Shown: positions 2,373 through 26,486 of the stretch, piece by piece | How positions within the stretch are numbered: the stretch's first letter is position 1 | Layout of the letters: each line of letters begins with the position of its first letter | DNA from: Spirochaetota bacterium | Lineage (GTDB): Bacteria; Spirochaetota; Spirochaetia; Treponematales; Treponemataceae | Reading direction: 5' to 3' | DNA length: 64,000 nucleotides | Assembly: GCA_016285185.1 (NCBI GenBank) | Contig: JAEEQG010000148.1 | Span: 1 to 64,000 of the forward strand | Position numbers and translations under genes: made by a program | The notes under the pieces: generated by a model | The model's input: only the letters and a program-made list of their open reading frames with translations | What the model was told of the DNA's origin: nothing | Databases searched by the model: none

Positions 2373-3083
2373 ATGAGTTTTTTTGAGAAAAATTGTGATA
2401 AATGCTATAAATCATATTATGTCAATAATATCATTACCATTGGTAATATGAGACTTCAATCGGTAGAATGTCCCTATTGTAAAGAGATATCTTATATTAA
2501 TTCTAGTAGTATTCCTCGAACTTCAAAGCAGTGTTTAAAAAGAATTCGACCAACTAGTGTGTTGCAAGACTTTAATAATCCTATAAAATATCCGAAGTTT
2601 CAAAATTGTGTTTATCACTTAACTTCGGAAAAGAATTTACAATTAATCCAAAAAAGAGGGTTATCATCTTATTCGCAATTAAAGGCAAAGAATATAAGTG
2701 TAACTACGGGTGGAGATGAGACATCCCTAGCTATTGATAATAATCTTGGATTAGACAAATATATTCATCTTTCTTTTACGGACTGGTGCCCGATGTTTTA
2801 TGAAAAAGAACAATTAGGAGAAAAATTATATACACTGCATATAAGTCTAGATGTTTTAGATCAGTCAGGTGTTTTATTTTGTGATAAAATTGCTACTACT
2901 AATGATGCTTTTTTCTATGATTACTTGGATTTGGATGTATTTGACTTTGAAGCTGTTTATGCTCGCTTAGACTGGAGAACACCAATTGGGCAAAAAAGGA
3001 GAAATCAAGCAGAAAAATATGAAATATTAGTACCAAACTATATCGCTCCTGAAAAAATAATCGATGCAATCCCTAGAAGTTAG
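2373..3083 (+). CDS. DarT-like (DUF4433-type) DNA ADP-ribosyltransferase toxin with N-terminal zinc-ribbon-like segment
   Basis: 'VYHLTSEKNLQLIQKRGL' (DarT-like N-terminal motif), 'YIHLSFTDWCPMFYEK', 'RRNQAEKYEILVPNYIAPEKI' (C-terminal region with conserved Glu); N-terminal CxxC (CDKC) and CxxC (CPYC) pairs. Confidence 0.72.
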   Translation: MSFFEKNCDKCYKSYYVNNIITIGNMRLQSVECPYCKEISYINSSSIPRTSKQCLKRIRPTSVLQDFNNPIKYPKFQNCVYHLTSEKNLQLIQKRGLSSYSQLKAKNISVTTGGDETSLAIDNNLGLDKYIHLSFTDWCPMFYEKEQLGEKLYTLHISLDVLDQSGVLFCDKIATTNDAFFYDYLDLDVFDFEAVYARLDWRTPIGQKRRNQAEKYEILVPNYIAPEKIIDAIPRS

Positions 3084-3786
3084 AGATTATCTTATGGCCA
3101 AGAAGTCTGTTTATTTACCAAAAAAACATGTTGTTGGTGTTGAAATAAAAAAACTGGATTATGAATGCTTCCCTGGTTTTTCACTTACTCAAAAACGAAA
3201 GTCGATAAACTCGTTGAAAGCTTCTGCAGAAACACAGGGAATAAAAAACTTTTTAGAGGTTTCTTCTAAATCCGATAATGAACTTGGAATAGCATTAAGC
3301 GCATTTAACCTCAAATTTGAAACAATCAGACCAAAAATGGTTCTTACAGTTGAAAACGTATTTCAGGCAAGTAAAGTTTTCGAACACGGCGGTCCATATG
3401 CCGATTTATTATCTGTTTCTGCTAAAGAAGCAAAACAAGATAAAAGATTAAAAACTTCTGGAAAATTACTAAAATTTAGATTCTATGGAAAAGACTATCC
3501 GACGACTCCTCCAACTTTCTTTTACGACTGGTTATATATAAATGCGTTGATAAAAAATGATAATTTGATAAACCAACTATTAAAATATGATTGTTTTTCA
3601 GATATTGAGTTTAATGATACAAAATCAATAAATTGTCAGGCATATTCTGTTGCTTTATTTGTTTCGATGAAAAAAAATGATGTAGATTTAACGCAACTCA
3701 AAGATAAATCAAACTTTTTATATATATGTAAAAAAGAGTATGAATCTAGATGGCATCAAGAAGGTAAAAAACTTATTCAATTATAA
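3064..3786 (+). CDS. NADAR-family protein, probable DarT1-type antitoxin (ADP-ribosyl-guanine hydrolase-like); start may be ATG at 3094
   Basis: 'ENVFQASKVFEHGGPYADLLSVSAKEAKQDKRLKTSGKLLKF...FYDWLYINAL', recalled as typical of NADAR proteins paired with DarT1; overlaps or abuts the DarT-like ORF. Confidence 0.68.
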   Translation: MQSLEVRDYLMAKKSVYLPKKHVVGVEIKKLDYECFPGFSLTQKRKSINSLKASAETQGIKNFLEVSSKSDNELGIALSAFNLKFETIRPKMVLTVENVFQASKVFEHGGPYADLLSVSAKEAKQDKRLKTSGKLLKFRFYGKDYPTTPPTFFYDWLYINALIKNDNLINQLLKYDCFSDIEFNDTKSINCQAYSVALFVSMKKNDVDLTQLKDKSNFLYICKKEYESRWHQEGKKLIQL

Positions 3787-9441: not shown

Positions 9442-11265
9442 ATGAAAGAATTTGAATATCCTTTTGACAGCGCATATCTTCTCAAAAAGAGAAAGTCCAT
9501 AAAGCGCGAGCTTCTGGCTGAAATTGAAGCGGCGAAAGCAGGTGGCGCAAAAATTCTTGAAAAGCGTATCGCAATCCTCGGTGGCTCAACTACGCATGAC
9601 ATACGAGACATGCTTGAGCTTTTCCTTCTGAACAACGGAATACAGCCGGAGTTTTACGAAAGCGAATATGATCAGTATTGGAACGATGTGATGTTCGATA
9701 ATGCTGAACTTGTAGAATTCAAGCCGGACATCATTTTTATTCACACATCTACACGGAATATAAGGAATTTCCCTACAATGCGTGATTCACGAGAAACTGT
9801 GGATACGCTTCTATCAGCGCAGCTTGCTCATTTTGAAGCGCTCTGGCAAAAGGCAGCAGAAACTTACAAATGCCCGATAATCCAGAACAACTTTGAACAG
9901 ACGTTCTACCGGCTTTTGGGCAACCGCGATGCTTGGGATTATAGAGGGCATCTCAATTTTGTTTCGCACCTTAATCAGAAATTCTATGAATACGCGCAGA
10001 CACACGAAAACTTCTATATAAATGACATAAATTATATTGCAAGCTGCTACGGCCTTCAAAAGTGGGCTGACCCGTTTTACTGGCACATGTACAAATATGC
10101 GCTCTGCATGGATGCAATCCCGGAATTTGCTTATAACCTTGCGAACATCATCAAGTCTGTCTACGGCAAGAACAAAAAGGCTGTTGTCTGCGATTTGGAT
10201 AACACGCTCTGGGGCGGAATCGTGGGCGATGACGGCGCGGAGAATATCGAGATAGGGCAGGAAACTTCTGTCGGTCAGCTTTACTCAGAATTTCAAGGCT
10301 ATCTGAAAGCGCACAAAGACTTGGGCGTGCTTCTTACTATTGATTCCAAAAACGACGAGGAAAATGCTCTTGCAGGCCTGAATCGTCCTGACAGTATTTT
10401 AAAACCTGATGATTTTATTGTAATAAAGGCAAACTGGAACCCGAAGGACAGAAACCTTCTGGAAACTGCAAATGAGCTGAATATCGGATCTGACGCGATG
10501 GTCTTTATTGACGACAACCCTGCCGAGCGTGAAATTGTCCGTTCGCAAATCGTCGGTTCAATAGGCGCAAAAGTTGCCGTACCGGAAATGACGGCGCCGG
10601 AAAAGTACATCAATATTCTTGACCGGAGCGGCTTTTTTGAGGTTACGCAGTTTTCTACTGATGATTTGAGCCGCAATGAAATGTACAAGGCAAATGCCGA
10701 GCGCGCAAAGCAGCAGGCAAGCTTTGCAGATTACGGAGAGTACCTGCTTTCGCTTAAAATGAAAGCAGAAATTAAGCCGTTTGCGCCGATTTATATGAGC
10801 CGGATTGCTCAGCTTACTAACAAGAGCAATCAATTCAATCTCACGACTTTTCGCTGCACTCAGGCAGATATCGAGCGTGTTGCTAACGCTCCAAATTACA
10901 TCACGCTGTACGGAAAGCTTGAAGATAAGTTCGGCGACAACGGCGTTGTTTCAGTTGTGTTTGGTCATATTGATGAAAAAGACAGCGCAATCTTTCATAT
11001 AGACTTATGGCTTATGAGTTGCCGTGTCCTGAAGCGCGACATGGAACAGTCAATGATGGATTCTCTGATGGCGGAATGTGCAGCTCATGGAATCAAAACT
11101 GTCAAAGGCTACTACTACCCAACAGCCAAGAACAAGATGGTAAAAGAGTTCTTCGCCCAGTTCGGCTTTGAAAAGACGAGCGAGGACGAAGCCGGCAACA
11201 CTACATGGGAACGCGCTGTAGAAAAGTATCAGAATCTGAACAGATATATCAAAGTAAATGAATAG
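9442..11265 (+). CDS. FkbH-like HAD-IIIC family phosphatase/acyltransferase (glyceryl-ACP-type loading enzyme)
   Basis: 'KKAVVCDLDNTLWGGIVGDDGAENIEIG' (HAD DxD; FkbH signature), 'MVFIDDNPAERE'. Confidence 0.9.
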   Translation: MKEFEYPFDSAYLLKKRKSIKRELLAEIEAAKAGGAKILEKRIAILGGSTTHDIRDMLELFLLNNGIQPEFYESEYDQYWNDVMFDNAELVEFKPDIIFIHTSTRNIRNFPTMRDSRETVDTLLSAQLAHFEALWQKAAETYKCPIIQNNFEQTFYRLLGNRDAWDYRGHLNFVSHLNQKFYEYAQTHENFYINDINYIASCYGLQKWADPFYWHMYKYALCMDAIPEFAYNLANIIKSVYGKNKKAVVCDLDNTLWGGIVGDDGAENIEIGQETSVGQLYSEFQGYLKAHKDLGVLLTIDSKNDEENALAGLNRPDSILKPDDFIVIKANWNPKDRNLLETANELNIGSDAMVFIDDNPAEREIVRSQIVGSIGAKVAVPEMTAPEKYINILDRSGFFEVTQFSTDDLSRNEMYKANAERAKQQASFADYGEYLLSLKMKAEIKPFAPIYMSRIAQLTNKSNQFNLTTFRCTQADIERVANAPNYITLYGKLEDKFGDNGVVSVVFGHIDEKDSAIFHIDLWLMSCRVLKRDMEQSMMDSLMAECAAHGIKTVKGYYYPTAKNKMVKEFFAQFGFEKTSEDEAGNTTWERAVEKYQNLNRYIKVNE

Positions 11266-11273
11266 TGTGAATT

Positions 11274-12179
11274 ATGGAGAATTCTATGGGTGAATTGGTA
11301 AATCAGTTTATTTTCAAAATTGGAGAGCGAGACCCATTTCAAAGGAAAGCTTTGGAGAAAGATGAACCCCTGATCGACGAAAAAGAAAATTTGGAACATT
11401 TTTTACAGTTTTGTGTCCAACAGAAGAAGAATACAATTGACGAGTTGGTGGAAGCTTATCTTTTTTTAATAAATATGTTTAGAGAAGAAACCTATTATTT
11501 TATTTCAAATGGTAAATACCGTTTCAGTAAATATGAGGAAATCGGAAATTCCGTGTATGGAAACCGTGATTATATGCAGAAATATATGATTGGTTTGGCT
11601 ATCTCTGACTACATTATGATTCCACATCTGAAAATGATACGTTTTTTCCAAGAGAATGTGCAGAAATTAAGCAACGGGGGGGGAAAATATTTTGAAATCG
11701 GTCCAGGTAGCGGGCAATTTCTTGTAAAAGCTATAGAAAGAGGAAATTTTACAAAATACAAAGCTTGTGATTTGAGTCAAACATCCGTAAACCTTTGTAA
11801 TGACTATTTGGCATATTCAGGTTTAATTGATAAATGTAAAGTTGAATGCAAAAATTTTTTTGATTATGGTGAAGAAGAAAAATATGATTGCATAGTTATG
11901 GGCGAAGTTTTGGAGCATGTTGAAAATCCTTCTGCAATGCTCAAGCGAATATACGAAATGCTAAAAGATGGTGGAAAAGCATTTATTACAACAGTAATAA
12001 ATGCTCCGGCTATTGATCACATATATCTTTTTTCAACCAAGGAGGAAGTTTTAAACTTGCTAGAAAATGCAGGTTTTGGAATTGAAAAATTCATTCTTGC
12101 AACTGCAGGTAATGTTCCTTTAGAAAAAGCAGAGAAAAAGAAATTTGCAATTGATATGGCAATGATACTAACAAAATAG
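11274..12179 (+). CDS. Class I SAM-dependent methyltransferase
   Basis: 'KYFEIGPGSGQFLVKAIERG' (motif I), 'YDCIVMGEVLEHVENP', 'LKDGGKAFITT'. Confidence 0.9.
   Translation: MENSMGELVNQFIFKIGERDPFQRKALEKDEPLIDEKENLEHFLQFCVQQKKNTIDELVEAYLFLINMFREETYYFISNGKYRFSKYEEIGNSVYGNRDYMQKYMIGLAISDYIMIPHLKMIRFFQENVQKLSNGGGKYFEIGPGSGQFLVKAIERGNFTKYKACDLSQTSVNLCNDYLAYSGLIDKCKVECKNFFDYGEEEKYDCIVMGEVLEHVENPSAMLKRIYEMLKDGGKAFITTVINAPAIDHIYLFSTKEEVLNLLENAGFGIEKFILATAGNVPLEKAEKKKFAIDMAMILTK
11676..11683 (+). repeat. Poly-G tract (G8) inside methyltransferase ORF
   Basis: gcaac-gggggggg-aaaatat, encoding N-G-G-G-K just upstream of SAM motif I. Confidence 0.9.
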
Positions 12180-12187
12180 GAGTTTTT

Positions 12188-12430
12188 ATGACACGGGAAG
12201 AAGTTTTTGAAAAGCTTAATGAGGTTTTCCGCGATGTATTCGATGATGAAGACATTACGGTAACAGAAACGACAAATGCTGATGATATCGAAGATTGGGA
12301 TTCTCTGAGCCACATCAACCTTGTCGTTGCGGTCGAAAAAGAATTCGGCATCAAATTCAGCATGGGTGAAACTCAGAAAATGAAGAATGTCGGCGAGATG
12401 GTAAATATCATTCTGGAACGTGTGAAATAA
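12188..12430 (+). CDS. Acyl carrier protein
   Basis: 80 aa; 'DIEDWDSLSHINLVVAVEKEFGIKF' with phosphopantetheine Ser in DSL. Confidence 0.94.
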   Translation: MTREEVFEKLNEVFRDVFDDEDITVTETTNADDIEDWDSLSHINLVVAVEKEFGIKFSMGETQKMKNVGEMVNIILERVK

Positions 12431-12825
12431 TGATAATACATCACGTTGGATTTCTAACCAAGAATCTCAAAAAATCAGAATCTGAATTTTTAGGTCTTGG
12501 TTTTGAAATCGAAAAAGAAGCAAAATTTGACCATATCAGAAAAGTGAATATTTCTTTTTTGATTAATAATGGCTACAGAGTTGAACTGATTGAACCTGTC
12601 GGAAAAGATTCGCCTCTTTATCCACTTTTGAAGCACTACAAGAATACACCATATCATTTTTGCTATGAATCAGAAAACTTCGATAAAGATATTAAAAAGC
12701 TTTCTGAAAATGGATATGCAGTGATCAATGAGCCTAAAGTTGCACCTTGCATAAATGATGGTTCTAAACAAGTGTGTTTTTTAATATCGACAAATACCGG
12801 TATTATTGAATTATTGGAGAAATAG
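12430..12825 (+). CDS. VOC family protein (methylmalonyl-CoA epimerase/glyoxalase fold)
   Basis: 'IIHHVGFLTKNL', 'YRVELIEP', 'PYHFCYE', 'GIIELLEK': His/Glu metal-ligand pattern of the VOC fold. Confidence 0.85.
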   Translation: MIIHHVGFLTKNLKKSESEFLGLGFEIEKEAKFDHIRKVNISFLINNGYRVELIEPVGKDSPLYPLLKHYKNTPYHFCYESENFDKDIKKLSENGYAVINEPKVAPCINDGSKQVCFLISTNTGIIELLEK

Positions 12826-12844: not shown

Positions 12845-14329
12845 ATGACTCTCACAGGTATTAGTTTCGTTTTATTTTTTTTTATAGCATTTAATATTTA
12901 TTATTTGGTTCCTGTAAAAAAGCAGTGGTATGTATTATTAGCTGCAAGTTTATGTTTTTATGGATTAATTTCTATAAAAATGTTGTTTATATTACTTTTA
13001 GTATCTATTATTTCATATTTAGCAGCTATATTTCATAAAAAGAAGTTTTTATTCTGGTGCTTGTTCTTGCTAACATTATTTCCGCTTGTTTTGTTTAAAT
13101 ACGCTGCTTTCTTTTCAGACAGCTTGAATATTGTTTTTTCTCTTATAAAAATTAATATGAGGATTCCTCAGTTAAACTTTTTATTACCACTGATGCCTGT
13201 AGGTATTTCATTTTGGACTTTTATAAGTTTGAGTTATTGCATTGATGTACAGCAAAATGATACACATTTGGAGAAAAATTTTCTAAAACATTTATTGTAT
13301 ATTTCGTTTTTTGGATATATAACATCTGGTCCTATTGTTAAACATAATGAAGTTGCAAATCAATTATATATTGGATATAAATTTGAAATAAGCTCCGCTA
13401 TTTCAGGTTTAAAACGAATTGCTTTTGGGTATTTTAAAAAACTCTGTATTGCAGATGCTATTGGATCTGTGATAACCCCTGACATTGCGTTAACAAATAC
13501 TGGGATAACAGTATTTATTTCCTTGATATTATTTTCATTGCAATTATATTTTGATTTTTCCGGTTATACGGATATTGTTATAGGTTGTTCAAAGATGTTA
13601 GGTATTAAATTGCCTGAAAATTTTAATGCACCGTATTTTTCAAAATCAATTACAGAATTTTGGCGCCGTTGGCATATTACTTTAGGTGAATGGTTTAAAA
13701 GCTATTTATTTTATCCATTTTTAAGAACAAAGTTTATTCAAAAAATTTCTGATTTACTAGATTGGAATAAGTATCTGAAAAAAACGATACCGACTTGTAT
13801 CGCATTGTTTGTTTTTTGGTTTACTGTTGGTTTATGGCACGGAGCTTCTTTTGGATTTATTTTTTATGGGTTATTTCATGGTTCTTTTATGATTTTTTCT
13901 ACAATAATAAAACCTTTAGTGAAAGACTTTTATAAAAAACTGCCATTTTTGAAAAATAATCCATTATGGTCCTTGTTTCAAATAATCAGAACATATATCT
14001 TAGTTTGTTTAGGTTATTCATTTTTCTGGACAGGTGGCTTTCCTAAAGGAATTACAATCATAAGAAATTTATTCATTTCAGAAAACTCATATTATTCCAT
14101 TCCACTTAACTTAGGAAAACTTATTTTACCAGTGCTTTTTTCGATTATTATTCTTGGATATGAGCAATTACGATATGTAAAACCAGAATCAGATAAATTG
14201 ATTAAGGATTTTTATAACAAATGTCCTAAATTTATTAAATACATTGTTTATTCTTTAATAATATTATGTATAAGTGCTTTGATTATACGAGAACGTGATT
14301 ATGCTTCTTTTATTTATTATAAGTTTTAA
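12845..14329 (+). CDS. MBOAT family O-acyltransferase (AlgI/DltB-like), copy 1
   Basis: 'LLPLMPVGISFWTFISLSYCIDV', 'PYFSKSITEFWRRWHITLGEWFKSYLFYP', 'FTVGLWHGASFGFIFYGLFHG'. ORF extends to TTG 12806, but ATG 12845 is a better start. Confidence 0.93.
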   Translation: MTLTGISFVLFFFIAFNIYYLVPVKKQWYVLLAASLCFYGLISIKMLFILLLVSIISYLAAIFHKKKFLFWCLFLLTLFPLVLFKYAAFFSDSLNIVFSLIKINMRIPQLNFLLPLMPVGISFWTFISLSYCIDVQQNDTHLEKNFLKHLLYISFFGYITSGPIVKHNEVANQLYIGYKFEISSAISGLKRIAFGYFKKLCIADAIGSVITPDIALTNTGITVFISLILFSLQLYFDFSGYTDIVIGCSKMLGIKLPENFNAPYFSKSITEFWRRWHITLGEWFKSYLFYPFLRTKFIQKISDLLDWNKYLKKTIPTCIALFVFWFTVGLWHGASFGFIFYGLFHGSFMIFSTIIKPLVKDFYKKLPFLKNNPLWSLFQIIRTYILVCLGYSFFWTGGFPKGITIIRNLFISENSYYSIPLNLGKLILPVLFSIIILGYEQLRYVKPESDKLIKDFYNKCPKFIKYIVYSLIILCISALIIRERDYASFIYYKF

Positions 14330-14338
14330 GGGAAATTT

Positions 14339-15391
14339 ATGTTTGATTTTTATAAAAAACTTTTAAAATATTGTATTCCGTTGTTTTTCTTCATACCGAT
14401 TCCTGCTTTTATTTATTATATTGGATTAGAACATCTTTCGATTAAAGATTCGTTTGTATTGCAAAATAAAGATAGAGAGATAAAATTGGGTAAAGCTTAT
14501 AGTAATGATATACAAACAACTAGTTTTTATTATATTTTACAAGAAAAACCTGAATTTTTAATTTTAGGAGCCTCACGTGTTGCCAATTTTAAATGTGAAG
14601 ACTTTTCCGAATCTTGTTACAATGCAAATATAAATGCTATTTCTGTTAAATTCTATTTGCAATATCTTATGGAATTACAAAAGAATGGATATTGCCCTAA
14701 AGATTTGCTCTTAGGTTTGGAACAATGGTTTTTTAATAATAATTTTAATTGTGATTCTAAAGATTATTCTGATGAAATTTGTAATTATTTAAGTTTTGCT
14801 AACAAAAAACAACATATTACTCCATATGCATATAGAAAAATAGTTGATGATTTGCTTCTTGGGAAAATAAATACCAAAATGATAGAAAGTAAAAACATTG
14901 GTGTTTCTGCAAAGATGAGAAATACTGGAAGAAGTTTTTTGGGTACAGGTTATGATTATAATTTTTTTAAATTGAAAAAATCTATATATTTAGAAGATGA
15001 TCATAAAAGACTATTAAATTCAATAAAAGAAAATACCTACTTAGATAGTAGATATATCAATGGTAATGACATTAACGTAAATACGATTAATCAATTAGAG
15101 TATTTGTTGAAATTTTGTAAAGATAATAAAATAAAATTATATGTGTTTTTGGCACCATTTTCTCCTGATGTTCTTCTTGAAATGAAAACAAATGGTAACT
15201 ATCAATATTTAAATAAGATAAATAAAGTTTTAACTACATGTGTAAATAAATATAATTATCCATTATTTGATTATACAGAAATGAATAATCCAGAAATAAC
15301 ATCATATAATTTTTCAGATGGATATCATGGTGATCCGTTTGTTTATAAAATCATTACTAAAGAGATATTAGAACAAATCCATGAAAAATAA
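14339..15391 (+). CDS. SGNH-like / AlgX-DltD-like partner protein
   Basis: N-terminal TM; 'FLILGASRVANF' (GxS block) and C-terminal 'FSDGYHGDPFVY' (D-x-x-H-like); follows MBOAT. Confidence 0.55.
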   Translation: MFDFYKKLLKYCIPLFFFIPIPAFIYYIGLEHLSIKDSFVLQNKDREIKLGKAYSNDIQTTSFYYILQEKPEFLILGASRVANFKCEDFSESCYNANINAISVKFYLQYLMELQKNGYCPKDLLLGLEQWFFNNNFNCDSKDYSDEICNYLSFANKKQHITPYAYRKIVDDLLLGKINTKMIESKNIGVSAKMRNTGRSFLGTGYDYNFFKLKKSIYLEDDHKRLLNSIKENTYLDSRYINGNDINVNTINQLEYLLKFCKDNKIKLYVFLAPFSPDVLLEMKTNGNYQYLNKINKVLTTCVNKYNYPLFDYTEMNNPEITSYNFSDGYHGDPFVYKIITKEILEQIHEK

Positions 15392-24944: not shown

Positions 24945-26486
24945 ATGCTTTTTAACAGTGTACAGTTTTATGTGTTTTTTGCGATTGTAGCGGTTCTTTA
25001 TTTTGTATGTACTCACAAAATTCGTAATAATCTTATCAGCCGCTTTCTGCTGCTTGTCGCAAGCCTTTTCTTTTATGCATGCTGGAATCCGACTTATCTG
25101 CTTTTGATTTTAACATCTGTCGTTATCACCTGGACAAGCGGTCTTTTAATGGAAAAAGCCTCTGAGTCAGTTCATAAAAAGAAGATGATTTTAACGGCTT
25201 CTTTAGTAATAAACCTTCTGATACTGTTCTTTTTTAAATATTACGGATTCTTTACTGATACTGTTCAGTTTATTTGTTCCAAAATCGGAATGCAGGCAAA
25301 ACTTCCTGCGTTTTCCGTACTGCTTCCGGTAGGAATAAGCTTTTATACTTTTCAGGCTCTCGGTTATTCGATTGATGTATACCGTGGAACTGTAAAGGCT
25401 GAGCACAGCTTTATAACATATGCTCTTTTTGTTACTTTTTTCCCGCAGCTTGTTGCCGGTCCTATCGAACGTTCAGGCAATCTGCTTCCACAATTTAAGG
25501 TTGACCATTCTTTCGATTATGACAGAGTGACAGACGGCTTAAAGCTGATGGCTTATGGTATGTTCAAGAAAGTTGTTGTAGCAGGGCAGCTTGCCCGGTA
25601 TACGGATCTTGTTTATGCCGACATTGCAGGTTCCTCGGGAACAGCGATTGCAATTGCAACAGTATTTTTTGCATTCCAGATTTTGTGTGATTTCTCCGGC
25701 TATTCGGATATTGCGATTGGTGCGGCGCAAGTTCTTGGATTCAAACTTATGCGGAACTTTGAACGTCCGTATTTTTCTAAAAGCATTGCCGAATTCTGGA
25801 GACGATGGCACATTTCGCTTTCAACTTGGTTCAAGGATTATGTGTATATTCCGCTTGGTGGCAGTCGCTGCAGCACATTGCGACGATGTTTTAATCTTTT
25901 TGTTACATTCTTGATAAGCGGTTTGTGGCACGGTGCTGCATTCCACTTTGTTCTGTGGGGTGCGATACACGGCTTGTATCAGGTTATCGGTGTAATAACA
26001 AAACCGTTTCGTATAGCTTTGCTAAGCAAAGCCAGCATTATATCAGAAGATGGTAAGACTAAACGATGGTGGCAGTTTATCCAGACTGCATTTACGTTTG
26101 TATTGGTTTGCTTTGCATGGATTTTTTTCAGGGCTTCTACAACGGCAGATGCATTGCTCGCAGTGCAAAAATTATTCTTGTTTCCTAAAGAGATTGTTCT
26201 GTCTGTAACAGGGCTTTTGAATGGTACTATAGGATTTGGAGAGGGATTTTTCAGACCGTATACTCTGGGTTTTTACAAAAGGACTCTTGCATCTTTCATA
26301 TTATTTATTGCTGTTATCACAGTGGTATCACTTGTTGCAAGAAACAAGACTGGTTGTCAACTTATAAGAGAAAAGCCGCTGCTTGTAAGATGGAGTTTGT
26401 ATTATGCTGTTTTTGCATTTGTTTTTTATTATATGGTTGATGCAGGTCTATTTGAAGCACAGGAATTCATTTATTTTCAGTTTTAG
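24945..26486 (+). CDS. MBOAT family O-acyltransferase, copy 2
   Basis: 'LLPVGISFYTFQALGYSIDVYRG', 'RPYFSKSIAEFWRRWHISLSTWFKDYVYIPLGGSR', 'FLISGLWHGAAFHFVLWGAIHG'. Confidence 0.96.
   Translation: MLFNSVQFYVFFAIVAVLYFVCTHKIRNNLISRFLLLVASLFFYACWNPTYLLLILTSVVITWTSGLLMEKASESVHKKKMILTASLVINLLILFFFKYYGFFTDTVQFICSKIGMQAKLPAFSVLLPVGISFYTFQALGYSIDVYRGTVKAEHSFITYALFVTFFPQLVAGPIERSGNLLPQFKVDHSFDYDRVTDGLKLMAYGMFKKVVVAGQLARYTDLVYADIAGSSGTAIAIATVFFAFQILCDFSGYSDIAIGAAQVLGFKLMRNFERPYFSKSIAEFWRRWHISLSTWFKDYVYIPLGGSRCSTLRRCFNLFVTFLISGLWHGAAFHFVLWGAIHGLYQVIGVITKPFRIALLSKASIISEDGKTKRWWQFIQTAFTFVLVCFAWIFFRASTTADALLAVQKLFLFPKEIVLSVTGLLNGTIGFGEGFFRPYTLGFYKRTLASFILFIAVITVVSLVARNKTGCQLIREKPLLVRWSLYYAVFAFVFYYMVDAGLFEAQEFIYFQF

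Follow-up and report, generated by a model that had tools for sequence, protein, structure and literature searches.

A short poly-G tract in an accessory methyltransferase gene of a spirochaete acyl-modification cassette as a possible phase-variation switch

The window analyzed here, a 64,000-nucleotide stretch of a Treponemataceae genome (contig JAEEQG010000148.1), contains a run of genes for the modification of acyl groups, one of which carries a tract of eight guanines:

9442-11265, + strand: FkbH-type HAD-IIIC protein (TIGR01686, E=5.4e-80; 39% identity to the Paroceanicella FkbH over 411 aa)
11274-12179, + strand: class I SAM-dependent methyltransferase (Methyltransf_23, Pfam PF13489, E=2.1e-16)
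11676-11683, + strand: G8 homopolymer, read from the sequence as GGG GGG GGA with a following A
12188-12430, + strand: acyl carrier protein with a DSL serine motif (PF00550, E=5e-5)
12430-12825, + strand: VOC/glyoxalase-fold protein, methylmalonyl-CoA epimerase-like (PF13669, E=2.2e-15; TIGR03081 below cut-off)
12845-14329, + strand: MBOAT O-acyltransferase, DltB/AlgI-like (PF03062, E=5.7e-12; a relative lies in a Tistrella cassette)
14339-15391, + strand: last gene of the cassette, a protein with one N-terminal hydrophobic stretch and no family match

All of the cassette genes lie on the + strand with intergenic gaps of -1 to 19 bases, and the GGAG ribosome site of the acyl carrier protein (ACP) gene overlaps the methyltransferase stop codon. 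An FkbH domain, a dedicated ACP and an acyltransferase are found together in this one gene run; the preliminary description had placed the methyltransferase in such an acyl cassette, and domain matches for its FkbH, ACP, VOC and MBOAT neighbors bear this out. From what is known of its family, FkbH presumably loads a glyceryl (three-carbon) unit onto the ACP. The position of the last gene suggests that its product is perhaps a partner of the MBOAT protein, and the gene 3' of the Tistrella MBOAT showed no detectable relation to it. Scans for promoters and terminators within the cassette gave matches at chance level. GC content ranges from 45% in the FkbH gene through 40% in the ACP gene and 33% in the methyltransferase gene to 24-27% in the MBOAT gene and the last gene, a mosaic which suggests that the cassette may have been put together piecemeal. 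The surrounding window encodes glycosyltransferases, a UDP-galactopyranose mutase, GtrII and, at 24945-26486 in the same glycan region, a second MBOAT protein (PF03062).

Full-length relatives of the methyltransferase, with 26-29% identity, occur in two FkbH cassettes on alphaproteobacterial plasmids, whose gene sets (ACP-FkbH-MTase-VOC on Paroceanicella pD4M1C and FkbH-MTase-ACP-MBOAT on Tistrella pTM1) overlap that of the window. Because these relatives adjoin FkbH and ACP genes together with a VOC or an MBOAT gene, we consider the cassette to be a real unit. It also appears to be accessory, since 58 other relatives yielded no comparable FkbH at E <= 1e-60 and the methyltransferase had no match in 392 other spirochaete genomes at E <= 1e-12. 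A search of 98 relatives for a further strain copy of the methyltransferase gave distant matches only, a scan of genome contigs returned an Omnitrophica relative (33%) as its sole match, and the gene was found neither in viral contigs, whether by DNA pattern or by protein search, nor in phages. Solved structures gave weak partial matches. Family-level matches in relatives were rejected as orthologs, being generic Rossmann methyltransferases, and were left out of the tract comparison below. Cassettes that form glyceryl-ACP through FkbH are known from the FK506-type extender pathway, and by analogy with these families the glyceryl-ACP product would here be methylated and transferred to a glycan.

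The G8 tract is uninterrupted and lies within the methyltransferase ORF, where it is read as AAC GGG GGG GGA AAA (N-G-G-G-K) directly 5' of SAM motif I, FEIGPGSGQ. This placement agrees with that given in the preliminary description, as does the predicted effect of a one-base slip, namely truncation before the SAM site. As sequenced, the gene is in the ON frame and encodes an intact product of 301 aa, with the tract mid-gene at codon 134. In silico substitution of the tract length yielded a 150-aa product for G7 and a 140-aa product for G9, both of which lack motif I, and over the range from -2 to +2 all out-of-frame lengths gave products of 139-151 aa while the in-frame length gave 301 aa. 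Tract length would thus toggle between full-length and truncated methyltransferase, as in a contingency locus, and eight guanines lie within the G/C cut-offs used for such loci in Campylobacter (at least 7; PMC6321876) and in T. pallidum (at least 8; PMC7864442). No second switch element was found among the tandem repeats of the window. Translation may in fact begin at an ATG at 11286, for which a GGAG is better positioned.

In an alignment of the three methyltransferases, the tri-glycine region reads SNGGGK, PAGGAH and RPGYRH with no indel, and only the middle glycine is invariant; the preliminary description had named a glycine run conserved with synonymous interruptions as evidence against a switch, a pattern that the homologs, with PAGGA and RPGYR there, do not show. 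The GC-rich Paroceanicella gene encodes its glycines as GGC GGC rather than as a G run, and no G tract was present where read in the two alphaproteobacterial relatives, a comparison weakened by their great distance (26-29% identity). The alphaproteobacterial cassettes differ from that of the window, which combines a G8 tract with a location inside a glycan locus. Given that GGG makes up 7.7% of Gly codons and that the tri-glycine is unconserved, the tract is not imposed by constraint on the protein, and this favors a switch. Judged by relatives this distant, the tract seems not to have been inherited from a tract-bearing ancestor. Conservation in orthologs is a supporting feature of contingency loci and not a requirement for membership.

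The principal alternative to a switch is that the G8 is a chance homopolymer, in which glycines of a flexible loop happen to be written GGG GGG GGA, purifying selection holds the frame and the run has no switching role. We regard this as a serious contender whose probability falls somewhat short of even. Within the window, G runs comprise 41 of length four, two of length five, none of six or seven, and then the G8, the sole run of at least six; however, dinucleotide shuffles of the window contained a mean of 0.30 G8 matches, and because 21 of 100 shuffles held at least one, the window alone proves little. The whole 2.77-Mb assembly is more informative: counted with overlaps, it holds 49 G six-mers, 12 seven-mers, 6 eight-mers and 2 nine-mers, which correspond to exact counts of 31 G6, 2 G7, 2 G8 and 2 G9 runs. 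Three of the four runs of at least eight fall in a single paralog array, leaving only two independent loci in the genome, a scarcity that favors a switch. This number is nonetheless close to the ~1.8 runs of at least eight per genome (0.041 G/C runs per window of coding sequence) predicted by a codon null model, in which synonymous codons were resampled in the window ORFs and the result was scaled on the assumption that the coding density and composition of the window hold genome-wide. An origin by chance is consistent with this value and with the intact methyltransferase frame. One of the two G7 runs encodes Ser-Gly-Gly-Val in the flagellar gene fliG and the other lies in an LtaS-like sulfatase gene; no signs of switching were seen at either, indicating that near-threshold runs can arise without such a role.

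The same null model expects ~55 G6, ~10 G7 and 0.07 G9 runs, and in comparison both G6 (31 observed) and G7 (2 observed, ~fivefold fewer) are depleted in this genome, unlike runs of at least eight. Extrapolating the observed fall from G6 to G7 gives ~0.1-0.3 runs of at least eight per genome. That the methyltransferase tract reaches eight despite the depletion of G7 argues against chance and for a switch. Overall, the G8 is locally unusual and a mild, not decisive, outlier genome-wide, where a chance origin is not impossible.

The other three runs of at least eight all occur at codon 11 of near-identical paralogous lipoprotein genes on two contigs (C146:10204-11507 and C99:28041-29404; loci L036 and L033), whose ends overlap except for a single base, so that the three genes probably make up one tandem array. 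Each gene consists of a start codon with a ribosome site, the G tract, a signal peptide with a lipobox and a Gly/Ser-rich body that is beta-helix-like, with Beta_helix_3 below cut-off. With G9, two copies remain open for 289 and 297 aa, while the third carries G8, is out of frame and stops after 20 codons. Since the leaders are 97-98% identical, the change in tract length is recent, and the contrast between the out-of-frame G8 and the in-frame G9 copies indicates that slippage at such lengths has occurred in this lineage.

In congeners, tracts of G8-G15 are found at the 5' ends of genes encoding secreted GH5 cellulases and within the linkers of lipoproteins, and ON as well as OFF alleles occur. 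In congener G006, a leader reading ATG-AAA-GAT-ACT-ATG-TAT-AGA-A, with small variations, is followed directly in 7/7 copies by G8 or G9 and then by a signal peptide; by frame, two of the seven are ON and five OFF. This family has members in G006 (L064, L068, L071, L088, L090, L092 and L095) and in other congeners (L057, L061 and L066), and where the bodies were tested, in G006 and in two further congeners, they proved to be GH5 cellulases (PF00150, E 1e-30 to 1e-45), which are apparently phase-variable. In a second family (L062, L072, L079, L093, L094 and L096) the tract directly follows the lipobox cysteine, except in L072, where three Gly codons intervene; copies with G8 are in frame and one with G9 is out of frame. 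A GGDEF gene in congener G002 (contig 7; L050) contains an out-of-frame mid-gene G10. At two further loci, L060 and L069, G9 tracts at ~1501-1509 lie between TTGACA and TATAAT-like hexamers with spacers of 19 and 18, making them candidates for promoter-spacer phase variation. Two N6/N4 DNA methylase genes (L080 and L085) contain an internal G8 and are possible phasevarion candidates; both are simply in frame, which counts in favor of a chance origin for the methyltransferase G8. The remaining congener tracts are intergenic or permit no clear interpretation.

These ON and OFF calls are frame calls from draft assemblies, in which error in single tracts is possible, yet the pattern is hard to obtain from error because position, strand and leader recur. 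From these alleles we conclude that poly-G slippage is truly at work in the genus, for which phase variation of this kind has good support, and the general premise of the preliminary description, that poly-G tracts act as switches, gains from the in-frame and out-of-frame alleles carried by both genome and genus. This genus-wide repertoire is a stronger finding than the methyltransferase tract itself, and a literature search found no report of poly-G phase-variable cellulases and lipoproteins in this genus. For the methyltransferase the comparison cuts both ways: genus poly-G alleles, G8 included, appear real and favor a switch, whereas most of the clear switch loci have their tract no more than ~25 codons from the start or directly behind the lipobox, and the mid-gene position of our tract disfavors one.

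Strong precedents in other bacteria favor a switch as well. Among the phase-variable genes of Campylobacter, SAM-dependent methyltransferases bearing G8-G10 tracts are frequent (PMC6321876), and UbiE_3, Cj0170 and others resemble the gene studied here in combining a poly-G tract of 8-10 with a SAM-dependent methyltransferase whose product is altered by a one-base slip. The likeness extends to tract and enzyme class; length variation between isolates is documented in Campylobacter, whereas here there is one sequence. The cut-offs of that study moreover take in tracts whose mutation rate may be too low to allow reversible switching, which weighs against a switch at this length. Of the tracts of at least eight guanines assayed in T. 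pallidum, only one did not vary in length (PMC7864442), and the tracts of tpr, tp0126 and the in-ORF tp0798 and tp0969 are of the same type and length range, some of them within ORFs; the window, too, appears to come from the treponeme family. The best-studied of these act in promoters and have measured variation, in contrast to an in-ORF tract known from one sequence; the poly-G tract described in the tp0126 promoter (PMC7864442) is resembled by the promoter-spacer tracts of L060 and L069.

Collectively, we tentatively favor a reading in which the G8 is the phase-variable slippery tract of an accessory methyltransferase and alters an acyl group of a glycan, to which we assign a chance just below even; slippage with a functional consequence we put at about one half, and the methyltransferase tract as a contingency locus of known kind is plausible but unproven. 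Under this reading, the G8 would be a coding tract prone to slippage, among the shortest that can be phase-variable and now in the ON frame. The methyltransferase would probably methylate an ACP-bound glyceryl-type unit made by FkbH and ACP, and the MBOAT protein would then transfer the methylated unit to a surface glycan. One-base slippage during replication would give rise to cells with a 140-150 residue fragment without the SAM site, and these may add an unmethylated group or, should the early stop have a polar effect, less of the group. Were the tract to vary, surface glycan chemistry would differ from cell to cell, a cheap defense against phages or host antibodies. The more specific proposal that this spirochaete employs the poly-G slippage regime which appears to act on its own lipoproteins and on the secreted cellulases of its congeners to switch whether an ACP-borne acyl group decorating its surface glycan is methylated is rather unlikely, and this target class is not among the congener poly-G loci seen. 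Weighing against a switch are also the length of the tract, near the shortest plausible, its derivation from a single assembly with one tract length, and the number of chance runs that the codon null allows. A further alternative, that the tract is a costly mutation hotspot whose slipped loss-of-function mutants are purged rather than a selected switch, fits its in-frame state, short length, mid-gene position and absence from orthologs, which points to a recent or lineage-specific origin, but we judge it improbable given that the cassette is accessory and its loss need not be costly.

Elsewhere in the window, at 2373-3786, a DarT-like ADP-ribosyltransferase gene is followed by an overlapping ORF, and the two possibly form a DarTG toxin-antitoxin pair with the ORF encoding the putative partner.
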